Of a DNA stretch of 32,117 nt, positions 4,485 through 27,487 are shown in pieces. The first letter of the stretch is position 1. Every line of letters begins with the position of its first letter. A model generated the notes under the pieces. The model saw only the letters and a list, made by a program, of their open reading frames with translations, made no database searches and had not been told where the DNA came from. The DNA comes from Clostridia bacterium. Lineage in GTDB: Bacteria > Bacillota > Clostridia > Lachnospirales > Lachnospiraceae. The DNA lies in assembly GCA_003252135.1 (NCBI GenBank), contig QKDK01000367.1:1-32117 (forward strand). Direction: 5' to 3'. The position numbers were made by a program, and so were the translations under genes.

Positions 4485-6113
4485 TTAAAACTTTGCCAAA
4501 AAATTCACAAATTGTGAAAACAATCCCGGATCATAGACACTCCCGGCTTCCAGCTTCATGGATTCAATGGCCTCATTTTTTGACATTTCATATCCATGCG
4601 GTCTTTTACCGCAAAGTGTTGTAAAGCGGCTGATGATGGATGCTATCCTTGTCAGCGGATCGATCTGTTCGTCTTTGAGATGATTCGGAAAACCTGTCCC
4701 ATCCCATCTTTCATGACGCTGAGAGATCGATCTGGCTATCGGAAAACTGTGATCATACATTTTAGCAAGCCTGTACTCGATCTCCGTTATATTATACCTT
4801 TGCTCCCAGACCTCATCCATATTATTCTCCGCATTCTTAAGCTCCTCCTGCGGAACAGCGATCAGCCCCATATACTGAATAGAAAGAAGCTGCTCAAGAT
4901 TTCTGACGATAAAGGTATCCATGGATAAAAAAGCCGCAAATTTATGGGCCAGTTCCTGGCCTGTCTCACAATCTTTCCTGTTGATATAATTCGTGTCATA
5001 CAGTGCTTTTCTGATGACATGCAGGCTGTTATTGCCTGCCCTTATCTTGTGCTTTTCAAGATACATTTTCTCTTCAGCCTGTTTGATGGCAGCAGCGATC
5101 GGCATCTGATTTCTTGTTCTTGTTGCTGTACCCAGTGAAATAGAAGGCGGCAGGATGGTGTCACCGATCTGACTGCAGCGCTGACTGATCCTTGTACAAT
5201 AATCCTCAGCTTTTTCTGCTCCTGTGCCTGGCAAAAGGATCGTAAATTCATCTCCTCCGCATCTGCAGATAATATAATGCTGCTCAGCTTCTTCCGTCAG
5301 AATCCTTCCAATCGTCTGTAAAAGAAAGTCTCCCTGTGCATGTCCAAAAATATCATTGGTGAACTTCAGAAAATTAACATCTCCAACAATGACAGATAAC
5401 AAAGACCCTTTACCAAGTTCAAGCTCTGTGCATTTGGTTTCGAAATACATTCTGTTATACAGATTGGTAAGCTGATCATGCATACTATTATGCAGAAGCT
5501 GCTGTTCCAGCTCATTACGAAAAGCAAGTTCTTCTTTTAAAAGATGATTCTTCCAGCCTTTCTCAGAAAGCTGTTTGGAAAGTATAAAAACCAGATTGGC
5601 AATCTTTTCAAAGTGATCTCTCGACATACGCGGAACTTTTTTAATTTCAAGGCAGTAAAGATCAGGATCAATTCCAAGCTCAGCTGCTCTTATTCGATTC
5701 TGGTCTTCTGTCTTCATCTGTTCATCAGGCAGTACCTGTCCCATCAGCCAGCTGGCGATATGTGTGTTCCCCACCATGATGCTTGCTCCGGCATCCAGCA
5801 ATCCTGCCGAAAGACATTGCGCAATAATAGGTCCATCTTTATTGGGCCTTCCAAGAACCGAATCCGAATACATGCAGTTCTGTTTCCCTTTTTCAGATGT
5901 TCTGACCACCTCACTGCAGAATCTGCAGAAGTGACTCTCCCTTGTGATCGGCGTTCCATCCGGCCTTGTAATGACCATGCCGATTTCAAGCGCTGATGAC
6001 ACGGAGTCCTGTAGATCCTGTATCTCCTGCAGATCAAACAAATCCTCAAAAGTATACTTTCCAGATCCTGTATATTGTCCAATACCTGTAACACTCAAGG
6101 CAAATACCCCCAT
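4485..6113 (-). CDS. PocR-domain diguanylate cyclase with degenerate HD-GYP-like C-terminus
   Basis: Numbering is from the ATG at 6113 (542 residues). Residues about 20-190 form a PocR ligand-binding domain, recognisable by its cysteine pattern (HFCRFC, GKQNC, IIAQC). A short helix leads to a GGDEF domain (about 210-360) with intact signature CGGDEF and first metal site GDVNFLKFTND, so c-di-GMP synthesis is plausible. The RxxD inhibitory site before GGDEF is absent. The last 180 residues resemble an HD-GYP phosphodiesterase (RHERWDGTGFP retained). However, the HD pair is replaced (IQYMGLIAVP where HDIGKIAIP is expected) and other metal ligands are missing, so this part is probably catalytically dead. 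The frame stays open upstream to a GTG at 6173, but a promoter lies over that region, so I placed the start downstream. ATG 6113 or TTG 6098 are the candidates, neither with a strong ribosome site. No membrane segment is seen, so it is likely a cytoplasmic sensor. Confidence 0.85.
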   Translation of the reverse strand: MGVFALSVTGIGQYTGSGKYTFEDLFDLQEIQDLQDSVSSALEIGMVITRPDGTPITRESHFCRFCSEVVRTSEKGKQNCMYSDSVLGRPNKDGPIIAQCLSAGLLDAGASIMVGNTHIASWLMGQVLPDEQMKTEDQNRIRAAELGIDPDLYCLEIKKVPRMSRDHFEKIANLVFILSKQLSEKGWKNHLLKEELAFRNELEQQLLHNSMHDQLTNLYNRMYFETKCTELELGKGSLLSVIVGDVNFLKFTNDIFGHAQGDFLLQTIGRILTEEAEQHYIICRCGGDEFTILLPGTGAEKAEDYCTRISQRCSQIGDTILPPSISLGTATRTRNQMPIAAAIKQAEEKMYLEKHKIRAGNNSLHVIRKALYDTNYINRKDCETGQELAHKFAAFLSMDTFIVRNLEQLLSIQYMGLIAVPQEELKNAENNMDEVWEQRYNITEIEYRLAKMYDHSFPIARSISQRHERWDGTGFPNHLKDEQIDPLTRIASIISRFTTLCGKRPHGYEMSKNEAIESMKLEAGSVYDPGLFSQFVNFLAKF

Positions 6114-6152
6114 TTCCCTAAAGCAAAATTGCATCGGCGAAAAACTAGGACT

Positions 6153-6181
6153 ATTATACCATTGAATTGACACAGTTACAA
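6153..6181 (-). promoter_or_regulatory. Promoter of the PocR-GGDEF gene
   Basis: Minus strand TTGTAA (6176-6181), a 17-base spacer and a perfect TATAAT (6153-6158). Transcription should begin near 6146. The upstream GTG codon at 6173 that would extend the coding frame falls between the two boxes, so it cannot be used by this transcript. The gene is therefore a unit separate from the glycine cleavage operon, which ends at 6224. Confidence 0.72.
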
Positions 6182-10841: not shown

Positions 10842-10857
10842 ATCTGCCTCTCTTTCC

Positions 10858-10871
10858 TGCGCTGCTGCGCA
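10858..10871 (-). repeat. GCGCA hairpin in front of the gcvH ribosome site
   Basis: Minus strand TGCGC-AGCA-GCGCA forms a perfect 5-base stem with a 4-base loop, followed by GGAAAGAGG and the gcvH start. The sequence GCGCAGGA leading into a purine-rich ribosome site is shared with both copies of the repeat upstream of gcvT. No other gene is seen in the 91 bases between gcvT and gcvH. Confidence 0.55.
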
Positions 10872-10932
10872 AATCGATGCTTTTTAGCTTTTTATCTTTA
10901 TGTTACGTTATGATGCTGGAGCAAAAGGTATT

Positions 10933-12030
10933 TTATCCCAATGATCTTTTATAGAACGGCAGGCTGCAGACCTTCGCCTCTACAAGCCTTCCTCTGATAT
11001 CTGCTTCTACTACGGTCCCTAAAACAGCATATTCTTTTTGCACCAGTGCCATAGCTACTGCTTTCCCAAGGTATGGGCAATGTGTACCGGATGTGCTTTC
11101 ACCGATTTTTTTCCCATCCGCCATGATACTGCAATGCTCCCGAATTATTCCCCTTCCGGTAACTTCAAGTCCCACGCGGGTCACAGACGGCTCCCCCTTT
11201 TTTTGCAAAGCCTCTTTTCCGATAAAGTCTTCCTGTCTGGCAAGCTTGACCGCAAAGGCAAGTCCTGCTTCGAGCGGGCTTATGGTGTCATCCATTTCAT
11301 GTCCGTATAACGGCATGGCTGCTTCAAGACGAAGCGTATCTCTTGCTCCGAGGCCGCATGGGATCAATCCAAATTCCTTTCCCTCTTTTAAAAGCAGTTC
11401 CCATAATGCGCCGACCGAATCAGGACTGCAGTAAAGTTCAAATCCATCTTCTCCCGTATATCCCGTTCTGGAAACAAGACAGGATATACCGCCTGTTAAA
11501 ACACATTCGTTTGTAAACGTGTAATATTTCTGCGGAATCTTGCTTTTATCACAGATTTTTTCCAGTATCTGTTCTGCTTTTGGTCCTTGCAGTGCGAGCT
11601 GTGCATATTCCTCAGAAACATCAGAAAGCTCTGCCTCGCCCGTTATGTGAGCTTTCATCCAGTTCACATCTTTCTCTTTGTTGGCAGCATTCACAACGAT
11701 CAGATAGGATTCCTCCTCCAGTTTGTACACCAGCAGGTCATCCACAACACCGCCCTCTTCGTTGCACATCGGGCTGTACTTTGCCTGTCCTGCCACCATT
11801 TTAGAACAGTCATTCGTCACCAGATGCTGGATATTGACCAGTGCATCTTTCCCTGTCAGTCTGACCTCTCCCATATGCGATACATCAAACAGTCCGCAAT
11901 CCTCCCTCACAGCCATATGTTCTTTGATAACTCCGGTCTCATACTGTACCGGAAGCAGATAACCTGCAAACGGTACGATTTTTCCCTTCCAGGCCACATG
12001 GTTCTCATACAAAGGGGTCTTCTTCTCCAT
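10933..12030 (-). CDS. gcvT: Aminomethyltransferase (T protein of the glycine cleavage system)
   Basis: This 365-residue, tetrahydrofolate-dependent enzyme takes the aminomethyl group from lipoyl-GcvH and releases ammonia and 5,10-methylene-THF. Family blocks seen are PLYENHVAWKGKIVPFAGY, REDCGLFDVSHMGEVRLTG, VSRTGYTGEDGFELY and LGARDTLRLEAAMPLYGHE. The start at 12030 (MEKKTPLYENH) has GGAGAG 5 bases upstream; the longer frame to a GTG at 12051 would read through that ribosome site and is rejected. It is the first gene of the gcv operon, 170 bases downstream of a riboswitch terminator. Length is typical (about 360-370). Confidence 0.96.
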   Translation of the reverse strand: MEKKTPLYENHVAWKGKIVPFAGYLLPVQYETGVIKEHMAVREDCGLFDVSHMGEVRLTGKDALVNIQHLVTNDCSKMVAGQAKYSPMCNEEGGVVDDLLVYKLEEESYLIVVNAANKEKDVNWMKAHITGEAELSDVSEEYAQLALQGPKAEQILEKICDKSKIPQKYYTFTNECVLTGGISCLVSRTGYTGEDGFELYCSPDSVGALWELLLKEGKEFGLIPCGLGARDTLRLEAAMPLYGHEMDDTISPLEAGLAFAVKLARQEDFIGKEALQKKGEPSVTRVGLEVTGRGIIREHCSIMADGKKIGESTSGTHCPYLGKAVAMALVQKEYAVLGTVVEADIRGRLVEAKVCSLPFYKRSLG

Positions 12031-12031
12031 A

Positions 12032-12064
12032 CTCTCTCCAATCCTGCGCACGTTCTCTGCGCAT
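12032..12064 (-). repeat. 33-base direct repeat, copy A (gcvT ribosome site)
   Basis: Copy A differs from copy B (12129-12161) at one base, C versus T at 12051/12148. Read on the minus strand it holds two TGCGCA palindromes 7 bases apart (12058-12063 and 12045-12050), able to form a 6-base stem. The sequence GGATTGGAGAGAG follows, which is the gcvT ribosome site directly before the ATG at 12030. Confidence 0.9.
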
Positions 12065-12070
12065 AATTTT

Positions 12071-12104
12071 AATTTTGTACCGAGGATTTCGCAGGTACAA
12101 AATT
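12071..12104 (-). other. 11-base-pair hairpin in the gcvT leader
   Basis: AATTTTGTACC (12071-12081) and GGTACAAAATT (12094-12104) are perfect inverted repeats around a 12-base loop. There is no T run afterwards, so it is not an intrinsic terminator. It stands between the two 33-base repeats, with a second perfect 8-base stem (12108-12115 with 12123-12130) next to it. The role is unknown; a post-riboswitch leader structure or a processing or stability element are possibilities. Confidence 0.6.
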
Positions 12105-12128
12105 TGCAGGTTGAGCGATCTTCTCAAC

Positions 12129-12161
12129 CTCTCTCCAATCCTGCGCATGTTCTCTGCGCAT
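12129..12161 (-). repeat. 33-base direct repeat, copy B (duplicate ribosome site)
   Basis: This is the upstream copy of the repeat at 12032-12064, offset by 97 bases. It carries the same double TGCGCA and GGATTGGAGAG, but is followed by GTTGAGAAGATCG instead of an ATG. In that position there is only a TTG. Its end overlaps the 8-base stem at 12123-12130. It looks like a duplication of the gcvT start region. Confidence 0.9.
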
Positions 12162-12199
12162 TGATGATTTCTGCTTTTCTGAGTGCATTTTTGCGCATC

Positions 12200-12230
12200 A
12201 AAAAAGCACATTGATATAAAATCAATGTGC
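12200..12230 (-). terminator. Terminator of the glycine riboswitch (expression platform)
   Basis: Minus strand GCACATTGAT (12230-12221), a 5-base loop and ATCAATGTGC (12215-12206) form a perfect 10-base stem followed by six T. It lies directly after the second aptamer and before gcvT, so it is the switchable terminator. By analogy with known gcvT riboswitches, glycine binding should prevent it from forming and turn the operon on. Confidence 0.88.
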
Positions 12231-12390
12231 CTCTGTATTTTTACCTGAAAGATTCTCTGTCCCATGACAGGTTGCTTCTTCGGTGTGATGAACACTTTCC
12301 AGAGTATCGTCCAAATCCGGTCCTTTTGCCTGAGAGTTTTCGCATTCCCCTTCGGCGCTGATAGATCAGTCTCTCCCAGATTCTTCATAC
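12231..12390 (-). promoter_or_regulatory. Tandem glycine riboswitch (two aptamers)
   Basis: Aptamer 1 (about 12390-12292) shows the conserved blocks GGGAGAG, GCCGAAGGGGAA, ACTCTCAGGCAAAAGGACCG and ACTCTGGAAAG in order. Aptamer 2 (about 12298-12231) repeats the pattern with CACCGAAGAAGCAACC, an AT/GC hairpin (CTGTC-atgg-GACAG), then AATCTTTCAGGTAAAAATACAG; its GAAAG/CTTTC stem is formed with the end of aptamer 1. The linker is only a few bases, as in classical cooperative glycine riboswitches. It lies between a strong promoter and the terminator at 12200-12230, upstream of gcvT. The 432 bases between gcvT and the coiled-coil gene are thus filled by promoter, riboswitch, terminator and leader repeats. 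Confidence 0.93.
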
Positions 12391-16779: not shown

Positions 16780-17694
16780 TCAGTGAATGCCCGTAATATA
16801 CGTCATTCGCTGCTTTAAGACCTCAATTTTCGCTTTTCTGATATCCCCGCCGTATTCACCGTCAAAGGTCCAGATCAGTTCTCCGTCTGTCTCTATGGTA
16901 AGCTCTTTTATTTTTTTATAATATATATTGGGACTGTTCTCCAGCTCACCGGTATAAAGGCAATTGATAATGGAATTCAGGTCCAGCAGGTTCTTCGGCA
17001 TTTTTATAAAGATCATTTCAAAATACCCGTCATCAAATATTACATCCTTTCCTGTAATACCCTTAAAGCCGCCGACAGAATCGGAATTAACGATCAGTCC
17101 GTCAATAAAATCATCCTCAATCTGAACACCGTCAGCCGTTAATTTCAAATGATAGGATTTCACATTGATCAGTTTGCCCGCCCCATTCAGGAAGTACGCC
17201 AATCTTCCGATGGCATTCTTTGCGATCTGCGAAGTATCATAGGTTACATCTGTAAAGAGACCGAATGCCGCAGAGTAAATAAAGGACTGACCGTTGATCA
17301 CTGCTATATCACTGGCAAGGGGCGTTCCTGTCACAGCAAGCTCTGCTGCTTTTACGATCTGATCCGGTATCTGCAGACTAGAAGCAAAATCGTTGGTAGT
17401 TCCTGCGGATATAAAACCCAATGGGATATTGTTACCGCTCCTTAGCACGCCTGATGCGACCTCTGCCAGTGTTCCGTCACCTCCTGCACAGACGATCCTG
17501 TCACAGTAATGCTCCTTCGCATACAGATATGCTTTCTCCGCTGCATCCAGTTTTGCCTTTGTCGGGTACACGATCACTTCATATCCGGCATTGGAAAATG
17601 CATCGACAATTTCCGGAAGTTTAGCCCTGATACGCCCCTTTCCTGCAAATGGATTGTAAATAAATAGTATGCTGCTGCGTTTATTTTCTTCCAT
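16780..17694 (-). CDS. Diacylglycerol/lipid kinase family protein (DgkB/YegS type)
   Basis: The 304-residue product belongs to the soluble DAGK-catalytic family. Near the N-terminus is IYNPFAGKGR; the nucleotide-binding signature GGDGT is at residues 71-75 (VCAGGDGTLAEVASG), followed by PLGFISAGTTNDFASSL. The C-terminal beta-rich half contains FDDGYFEMIFIK and the acidic FDGEYG that pairs with it in the fold. In Firmicutes such enzymes rephosphorylate diacylglycerol released during lipoteichoic acid synthesis, but the exact lipid cannot be read here. The ATG at 17694 has AGAGGTG 7 bases upstream; a longer frame to 17730 has no better site. It follows addA by 66 bases and may be co-transcribed with it. 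Confidence 0.88.
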   Translation of the reverse strand: MEENKRSSILFIYNPFAGKGRIRAKLPEIVDAFSNAGYEVIVYPTKAKLDAAEKAYLYAKEHYCDRIVCAGGDGTLAEVASGVLRSGNNIPLGFISAGTTNDFASSLQIPDQIVKAAELAVTGTPLASDIAVINGQSFIYSAAFGLFTDVTYDTSQIAKNAIGRLAYFLNGAGKLINVKSYHLKLTADGVQIEDDFIDGLIVNSDSVGGFKGITGKDVIFDDGYFEMIFIKMPKNLLDLNSIINCLYTGELENSPNIYYKKIKELTIETDGELIWTFDGEYGGDIRKAKIEVLKQRMTYITGIH

Positions 17695-27299: not shown

Positions 27300-27487
27300 T
27301 TCTTAAGCCCCAAAGTGCCGTCTCCTGTATTTTGACTCCTAGCATGAGCTAGGTGGGTTACCGCAAATAAGTCTCTGTCCTCCATTCAAAGATGGCTTGA
27401 CATTCACTTAAAAATATAGGAATCCCTTAAAATAATTGTAGGTTCAAAATAACAGGAAGGGCGTACACCCCAGGAAGATTATTTCCT
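27300..27487 (-). ncRNA. ssrS: Probable 6S RNA (RNA polymerase regulator)
   Basis: No coding frame fits here, yet the stretch has its own promoter, a terminator and a rod-like fold. On the minus strand TCCTG and TATTTTGA in the 5' half pair with TCAAAATA and CAGGA in the 3' half (13 base pairs with one bulged T). Between them is a large AT-rich internal bubble (CAATTATTTTAAGGGATTCC on the 5' side). Beyond the bubble are an apical stem (GTC..CCAT/ATGG..GAC) and a small hairpin CCTAGC-TCAT-GCTAGG on the 3' side. A long closing helix, open central bubble and about 190-base size are hallmarks of 6S RNA, and the 3'-side bubble hairpin fits gram-positive forms. I recognise it by structure and context, not by a fixed motif; another structured RNA is possible. 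Confidence 0.68.

Follow-up and report, generated by a model that had tools for sequence, protein, structure and literature searches.

Paired Ribosome Sites Before gcvT in a Lachnospiraceae Genome as the Probable Ends of One Unit of a Dispersed Leader Repeat

The glycine cleavage gene gcvT of a Clostridia bacterium of the family Lachnospiraceae (GenBank assembly GCA_003252135.1, contig QKDK01000367.1; the window is the whole stretch analysed, positions 1 to 32,117, or 32,117 nt) is preceded by two nearly identical ribosome-site elements. This pair probably represents the two ends of a single unit of a dispersed, tandem-amplifying leader repeat, inserted or kept at junctions between a Shine-Dalgarno sequence (SD) and a start codon because it restores the SD. 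The unit is present in many copies, lies on the sense strand directly before start codons, often with a further SD upstream of its first hairpin, and, where orthologous starts were compared, stands at some starts of this genome that lack it in a sister species, and vice versa.

The gcvT Leader

A repeat search located two 33-nt copies on the minus strand, A (12032–12064) and B (12129–12161), which are 97% identical (32 of 33 bases, one differing) and whose starts lie 97 nt apart. Each contains TGCGCA-7 nt-TGCGCA, which by folding gives a 6-bp hairpin (H3), followed by the full ribosome site GGATTGGAGAGAG. The SD-to-start spacing is equal in both, GGAGAGAG-T-ATG in copy A versus GGAGAGAG-G-TTG in copy B, with an ATG after the downstream copy only. 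The two copies, their palindromes and ribosome sites, the single ATG, and the location between a glycine riboswitch terminator and gcvT bear out what an original prediction had read from the same DNA; the two hairpins between the copies (H1 and H2) and the genome-wide family to which they belong are additional to it. In minus-strand order, the leader runs from the glycine aptamers through a terminator-like hairpin and T run to copy B, H1, H2, copy A, and the gcvT ATG; a single H1-H2-H3-SD unit fills the interval between the upstream ribosome site and the start codon of gcvT. Its features are as follows.

12308–12388, minus strand: glycine riboswitch aptamer 1 (Rfam RF00504, 63.7 bits, gathering score 32)
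12231–12304, minus strand: glycine riboswitch aptamer 2 (Rfam RF00504, 38.2 bits, gathering score 32)
12200–12230, minus strand: intrinsic-terminator-like hairpin of 10 bp with a 5-nt loop, then six T (stem 12206–12230; taken from the sequence, the program listing covering the plus strand only)
12129–12161, minus strand: copy B, the upstream H3 (12142–12160) and SD GGAGAG (12131–12136) (12130–12164, 45.8 bits with covariance model R1, among whose building sequences it stands)
12108–12130, minus strand: H1 hairpin, AGGTTGAG-AAGATCG-CTCAACCT, first part of the putatively inserted unit (folding z = −3.9)
12071–12104, minus strand: H2 hairpin, 11-bp stem, loop TGCGAAATCCTC (folding z = −4.8; like the stem and loop in other copies)
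12032–12064, minus strand: copy A, the downstream H3 (12045–12063) and SD GGAGAG (12034–12039), ribosome site of gcvT (12033–12067, 47.9 bits with R1, likewise built in part from it)
12005–12127, minus strand: possible TTG open reading frame (ORF) predicted from sequence (TTG 12127–12125), 40 codons and a stop, out of frame and overlapping the first 26 nt of gcvT
10933–12030, minus strand: gcvT, 365 aa, ATG 12030–12028, domains GCV_T and GCV_T_C
10846–10875, minus strand: weak H3-SD before gcvH, TGCGC-AGCA-GCGCA, GGAAAGAGAGG, then ATG (R1, 15.8 bits, E 0.022 in the window)

The RF00504 aptamer fold was found twice, and both aptamers lie upstream of the repeat and are separate from it. The stretch 12020–12235, terminator hairpin included, folds with z = −5.1, and the fold predicted for the leader allows some of the SD region to pair. 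Downstream of gcvT lie gcvH, both gcvP halves, and a pyridine-nucleotide-disulphide oxidoreductase gene; a gene for a PocR sensory domain-GGDEF-HD protein (window 4485–6173, minus strand) adjoins this glycine cleavage operon.

A Dispersed, Tandemly Arrayed Repeat Family

A BLAST search with the leader against its own genome gave hits at six further places, and in three of these the hit covers the sequence that separates the copies (80% identical on contig C107, 74% on C180, and 71% on C179). Because H1-H2 homologues stand at other genes, the gcvT locus cannot be explained locally. Searched with up to three mismatches, a 22-nt H3 pattern containing neither SD nor ATG gave 22 matches in this genome versus 0 for the reversed control; 21 of these are followed by an SD, with an ATG or another unit behind it, or run up against a contig end, and the remaining one (C26, L017) lies inside a 358-codon open frame and was excluded from the alignments. 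With 150 of 2613 candidates scored, the H3-SD covariance model R1, built from 29 sequences, returned 107 matches here at E ≤ 1, of which 85 also reach E ≤ 0.01; the 20 building sequences from this genome match by construction.

The family extends to other species and genera. With a second pattern, again at up to three mismatches, matches numbered 65 versus 0 for the control in this genome, 52 versus 1 in the sister species SZUA-610, and 51 versus 2, 26 versus 2, and 17 versus 0 in three other genera (genomes G214, G182, and G115, respectively); the further genomes G145, G002, and G003 gave 8 versus 0, 6 versus 0, and 1 versus 0. A full copy (L230:5280–5392) matches 37 places in SZUA-610, whole or in part, at 76–98% identity (40 candidates scored), which indicates copies rather than convergence. 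A scan of named genomes yielded at least 80 loci in Anaerocolumna, Lachnoclostridium, [Clostridium] fimetarium, Herbinix, many Lachnospiraceae metagenome-assembled genomes (MAGs), and a few others. R1 matched 32 of 299 genomes in a family-level draw (E ≤ 0.01) and 14 of 392 in an order-level draw (E ≤ 0.001; 13 from the same family, this genome being counted in the total, and one weak match outside it); because scoring was limited to a few candidates in each genome, both counts are lower bounds, and chance may account for some of the weak single matches. The CAMBEF01 records (L098, L119, L120, and others) come from a MAG labelled ‘Bacteroides’ that is rich in this mostly Lachnospiraceae repeat, and the label may be wrong.

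Judged by the spacing of R1 matches, arrays of 2–5 H3-SD occur at 11 loci in this genome, on contigs C209, C228, C86, C397, C179, C304, C211, C275, C277, C35, and C96. Units are near-identical inside one locus and divergent between loci, and the first element of several arrays is an isolated H3-SD or a unit truncated inside H2 (C209 and C228 here; L236, L248, and L252 elsewhere). On C228 (L029, G000:C228, reverse strand, 1402–1793), 4.5 units of 84 bp stand behind a T-box and a terminator-like stretch, before a gene that we take to be glyS from its T-box leader and its protein sequence. Contigs C96 and C35 end within repeat arrays; arrays can thus break assemblies, and copy numbers are lower bounds. 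In SZUA-610, two tandem repeats on L234 (C6), at 16797–16914 (58 bp × 2) and 16991–17279 (115 bp × 2.5), appear by eye to be unrelated to the family.

When the leader (11900–12240) was searched against Rfam at E ≤ 5, three matches were obtained, none reaching threshold, and a search of 20 repeat loci at E ≤ 0.5 gave three matches, with T-box alone above threshold. No description of the repeat was found in the literature searched, which consisted of open-licence PMC papers. Elsewhere in the window, a 6S RNA was recognized at 27303–27479 on the minus strand (RF00013, 70.8 bits).

Position Between Shine-Dalgarno Sequences and Start Codons

From the 107 R1 matches in this genome, 77 sites were examined for start codons: 58 have an ATG with an ORF 0–5 nt after the match (one at 11), the background for any start triplet over the same interval being 19.6%, and 16 of the 19 non-ATG sites are upstream array units or contig ends. 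In the named genomes, the search pattern includes the SD but leaves the start codon free. A start lies 3–12 nt beyond 75 of the 82 matches: ATG in 70 cases and GTG in 5, of which two (L111 and the first of L131) are H1 of a further unit. The seven misses comprise three array units, one contig end, L129 (Nanopelagicales), which lies in a 258-codon open frame, L159, with a very short ORF only, and L130, with no clear start. In 9 of 24 rows, an open frame of at least 80 aa on the same strand terminates 20–82 nt upstream, which places some copies inside probable operons.

In most cases another SD is found immediately ahead of H1; the unit thus separates an SD from its start codon. Over the 20 nt before the H1 xTG, the duplex energy with the anti-SD averages −7.3, versus −2.2 in control windows 60–180 nt upstream; values of −5 or below were obtained for 27 of 34 units and 28 of 170 control windows, or for 24 of 31 units once three belonging to the C228 array are removed from a sample of units with a clear H1 that had been filtered as single. 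The H1 filter required TGAA, CGAA, or TGAG in the stem and thus partly built in the xTG, though not the SD; an SD followed by GTG or TTG in 33 of 34 units is, accordingly, partly fixed by the picking of H1. A few other units (e.g., L107) may follow an older, decayed unit. At L131 (SUG268 MAG), the frame is open from the upstream GTG into the gene (342 versus 313 codons), and the same is seen by eye at L252 (G182); a start at the upstream GTG would add an N-terminal extension in these cases.

Unit Anatomy and RNA Structure

A full H1-H2-H3-SD unit spans 84–108 nt in the measured arrays, or 62 nt without H2. H1 stems vary while their pairing is kept (GTGAAAG/CTTTCAC, GTGTGAA/TTCACAC, GTTGAAG/CTTCAAC, and GTCGAAG/TTTCGAC). 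H2 has the form AAGTTTGTGC.../...GCACAAACTT with a long or short loop, its stem and loop motif recurring across genera, and H3 is TGCGCA-loop-TGCGCA or variants such as TGTGCA/TGCACA. Some copies bear extra hairpins upstream of H2, such as a recurring AACTGCGATATTCTCGCAGAGGGCTCGAACATC stretch; long leader versions with extra recurring modules at this position lie on C25 near 18571, C315 near 4590, C333 near 1127, and C74 near 1287 in this genome.

Pairing in H3 is kept in 97.7% of alignment cells, and two pairs are changed on both sides, such cells (5) exceeding those in all 500 shuffles. RNAalifold analysis of a 19-sequence alignment found H3 alone, because H1 and H2 differ in length and align poorly. 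These two hairpins were therefore judged from stems inside each sequence, for 154 of 179 units, the other 25 being skipped for want of a usable H3 anchor. An H2-like stem was found in 113 of 154 units and an H1-like stem as well in 63; the corresponding figures in a permissive control, made by mononucleotide shuffling with G-U pairs accepted, were 350 and 70 of 770. These counts lend weak support to H2 and better support to H1. Mean folding z for single sites is modest, at −1.8 for 77 sites in this genome and −2.1 for 79 in the named genomes, because many sites hold only H3-SD. The SD end is unpaired 0.59 of the time in this genome and 0.74 in the named ones, over all units, so that the idea of an exposed SD is borne out only in part.

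Presence and Absence Between Species

Comparison with SZUA-610 covered two syntenic stretches of about 19 kb, plus gcvT. In this closest relative, whose gcvT is 80% identical, the riboswitch and terminator are followed by a different hairpin before the SD, and neither H1/H2 nor a second copy was found in the leader; four more-distant relatives matched through the riboswitch (L179, L180, L181, and L184) have plain gcvT leaders by eye. The lack of conservation at gcvT weighs against both roles proposed originally for this gene in particular, a standby site and a leader peptide. It had also been proposed that relatives with a single copy and an unconserved spacer would indicate neutral duplication. 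The second copy is indeed missing from the relatives compared, yet a neutral local event is insufficient as an answer.

At the C25 operon junction, whose gap in SZUA-610 is 2 nt, the sister species has CTCGGGGAGATGTAAAG directly followed by ATG, whereas this genome has CTCGGGGAGATATGAGT, then 217 nt of element, then ATG, with the element between SD and ATG. Conversely, SZUA-610 arrays of 3.0 × 98 bp and 2.6 × 108 bp face unit-free leaders in this genome, and an H3-SD in SZUA-610 precedes a presumably tsaD-like gene whose orthologous leader here is without a unit. The two stretches hold eight starts with R1 matches at E < 0.01 (five here and three in SZUA-610, arrays being counted once; a 15.2-bit match in L231 and a 15.8-bit match in L230 were left out, and L230 and L233 were not compared), and at none of the eight does the same module stand at the orthologous start. 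The sister species has a different hairpin at the start orthologous to that of L231 near 4876 and a short leader with a possible decayed hairpin at that of L232 near 3773; two further orthologous starts are plain.

Origin and Function of the Unit

The repeat is best explained by a unit entering a gene within its SD-to-start interval. The gene's own SD would be left on the 5′ side, where it would face the xTG with which H1 begins its stem and would serve a short ORF or nothing useful, and the unit's SD beside H3 would take over the gene. As each unit ends in the SD that is needed on its 5′ side, further units could be added head to tail at one place, and a low cost of insertion to the host would explain the copies seen there. 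Recombination or insertion at the SD core would fit as the means of movement, and a Y1 transposase would not. At gcvT, copy B would be the stranded older ribosome site with its H3, and copy A the working site; to judge from the sequence, the relic may start a useless TTG ORF and lower gcvT expression somewhat. The riboswitch, whose sequence is intact, would act before the unit is transcribed. A more specific version of this scheme, in which a dedicated activity inserts the element at the SD core of any gene and parts the SD from its start codon, the element's own SD heals the gene, and each insertion leaves a tiny upstream cistron beside the old one and recreates the target for tandem growth, is a tentative possibility that we consider to have somewhat the lesser chance.

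Several observations weigh against insertion at SD-start junctions. Three of the 77 sites have neither a visible start nor a further unit (C245:2469, C100:8290, and C383:12665), and 7 of 31 single copies have no good SD upstream. At some sites H3-SD stands without a visible H1 or H2, and it could thus be the older part and the one with a function. H3 shows modest covariation, and a control slid by −2 columns scores slightly higher, though it pairs in only 67.8% of cells. The species comparison covers just the two syntenic stretches and gcvT. The junction at C25, the cleanest site, is ambiguous: AGTATG on both flanks of this one clean empty site could be a target site duplication or a mere similarity of SD spacer and start. 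One plain leader in this genome still reads GTGCAGGAATGGAGG, perhaps as a relic. In this sequence comparison, no movement was seen and no enzyme was found. Finally, copy B is an H3-SD one base from copy A, and not a plain SD, the nearest other H3-SD in alignment A1 differing from A and B at 5 and 4 positions; local duplication or later homogenisation must therefore be part of events at gcvT.

Downstream proteins were scanned for 35 of 58 cases; 30 of the 35 match a family at E ≤ 1e-5, some of them below the curated cut-off (ABC_tran three times, BPD_transp twice, and the rest once), and no common functional theme was found among the 35. The unit is thus read as a tolerated interspersed repeat carrying an SD, and a regulon was rejected. 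A conserved leader peptide was likewise rejected as the main reason for the unit, because, within one subfamily, stops or frameshifts interrupt the H1-xTG ORF of several copies and, from one subfamily to another, the ORF changes frame.

The same lack of theme makes it unlikely that the unit is a cis-regulatory RNA, in which H1-H2-H3, on binding a protein, small RNA, or ligand, would control translation of a set of genes from the adjacent SD. Such a role would suit the preservation of structure under sequence change in the H1 stems, in H3, and in the H2 stem and loop across genera; in probable operons, any effect would indeed be on RNA, and CCUC in the H2 loops of some copies could pair with the SD. 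However, CCUC is missing from short-loop H2 copies, no Rfam family fits, and presence at given genes differs between sister species. A second alternative is that the stranded upstream SD is itself useful, with 30S binding stabilising the mRNA or loading ribosomes, in the manner of a stabilising SD (STAB-SD) or standby site. Copy B, a leader SD without a good start codon, has a parallel in cry3A, where such an SD blocks RNase J1 (PMC4113751), and SDs upstream of H1 are common across the family; yet at most loci this SD is simply explained as a former ribosome site, and the GTG or TTG that nearly always follows would start a short ORF, not park ribosomes. We therefore regard a useful stranded SD as improbable.

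The idea that the gcvT ribosome site simply underwent a local, neutral tandem duplication has very little in its favour beyond the one-base distance between A and B and the absence of a second copy from the relatives compared at gcvT. The tandem unit postulated originally is real, but the ‘recent neutral’ event is too small an account for a unit dispersed at scores of unrelated genes in several genera, and the H1-H2 homologues elsewhere rule out simple local duplication. Repetitive extragenic palindromes (REPs) are small hairpin elements that occur in tandem pairs and at high copy number. The present repeat shares these traits; even so, derivation from a REP, a bacterial interspersed mosaic element (BIME), or IS200/IS605 with movement by a Y1 transposase (REP-associated tyrosine transposase, RAYT) was rejected as scarcely credible, since PF01797 was detected in only one of ten genomes searched (G145, with thirteen matches) and in none of the five richest (this genome, 80% complete, SZUA-610, G214, G182, and G115; the others are incomplete too), compared with 5 of 14 control genomes, and since REPs are not known to keep a strict position at start codons.

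Significance

The common view is that small interspersed repeats of bacteria survive wherever their harm is smallest. A repeat lodged between SD and start at scores of unrelated genes, where it restores the ribosome site, would represent a new mode of repeat tolerance. Sister species that carry the same gene with and without a unit, and arrays of one to five units, would provide a natural experiment in leader evolution. For annotation, the family is a warning: what is called as a start, an upstream ORF, or a ‘decoy’ ribosome site in a Lachnospiraceae leader may be debris of the repeat, and arrays can break contigs.

Comparison with Known Systems

The nearest kinds of element are BOX, RUP, miniature inverted-repeat transposable elements (MITEs), REPs, and Rickettsia palindromic elements (RPEs), none of which is described as tied to the SD-start interval in the portions of the sources available. 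REP/BIME systems with RAYT resemble the repeat in their hairpins, tandem arrangement, and dispersal, and differ in that a Y1 transposase was found in only one of the genomes searched here. RPEs are, like the present unit, tolerated insertions compatible with translation, whereas the short H1 ORF of the unit is broken in several copies.

BOX of Streptococcus pneumoniae (like RUP and SPRITE) is similarly modular, hairpin-forming, high-copy, and dispersed, measuring 67–637 bp with one module that can be absent or repeated (PMC3049150). One BOX lies in a leader with two T-box riboswitches, and the present repeat follows a glycine riboswitch and, at glyS, a T-box. BOX is over-represented between convergent genes (16, against 70 upstream of coding sequences, P 0.0017), RUP is also in excess there, and both have terminal inverted repeats and target duplications (PMC3049150). 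In the accessible parts of that account they are not tied to an SD, whereas the present repeat carries one and lies at SD-start junctions; this sets them apart by description, not by sequence.

Prokaryotic MITEs share short length, many copies, and presence or absence between relatives, but the position of the present repeat is tied to start codons and terminal inverted repeats were not seen: by eye, the full copies in one subfamily begin near AAGAGTGAAAG and finish near GCGCAGGAATGAGG, and neither sequence is the reverse complement of the other. The transposase search bearing on a MITE or REP link covered PF01797 only. A 2024 MITE review (PMC10969869) contains neither ‘ribosome’ nor ‘start codon’ in the text available.

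For an SD that lacks a gene, the cry3A STAB-SD offers the closest known role; this leader SD does not start the gene, and it blocks RNase J1 (PMC4113751). Copy B is likewise a leader SD that does not start its gene, but differs in that it would, on its sequence, be a displaced ribosome site.
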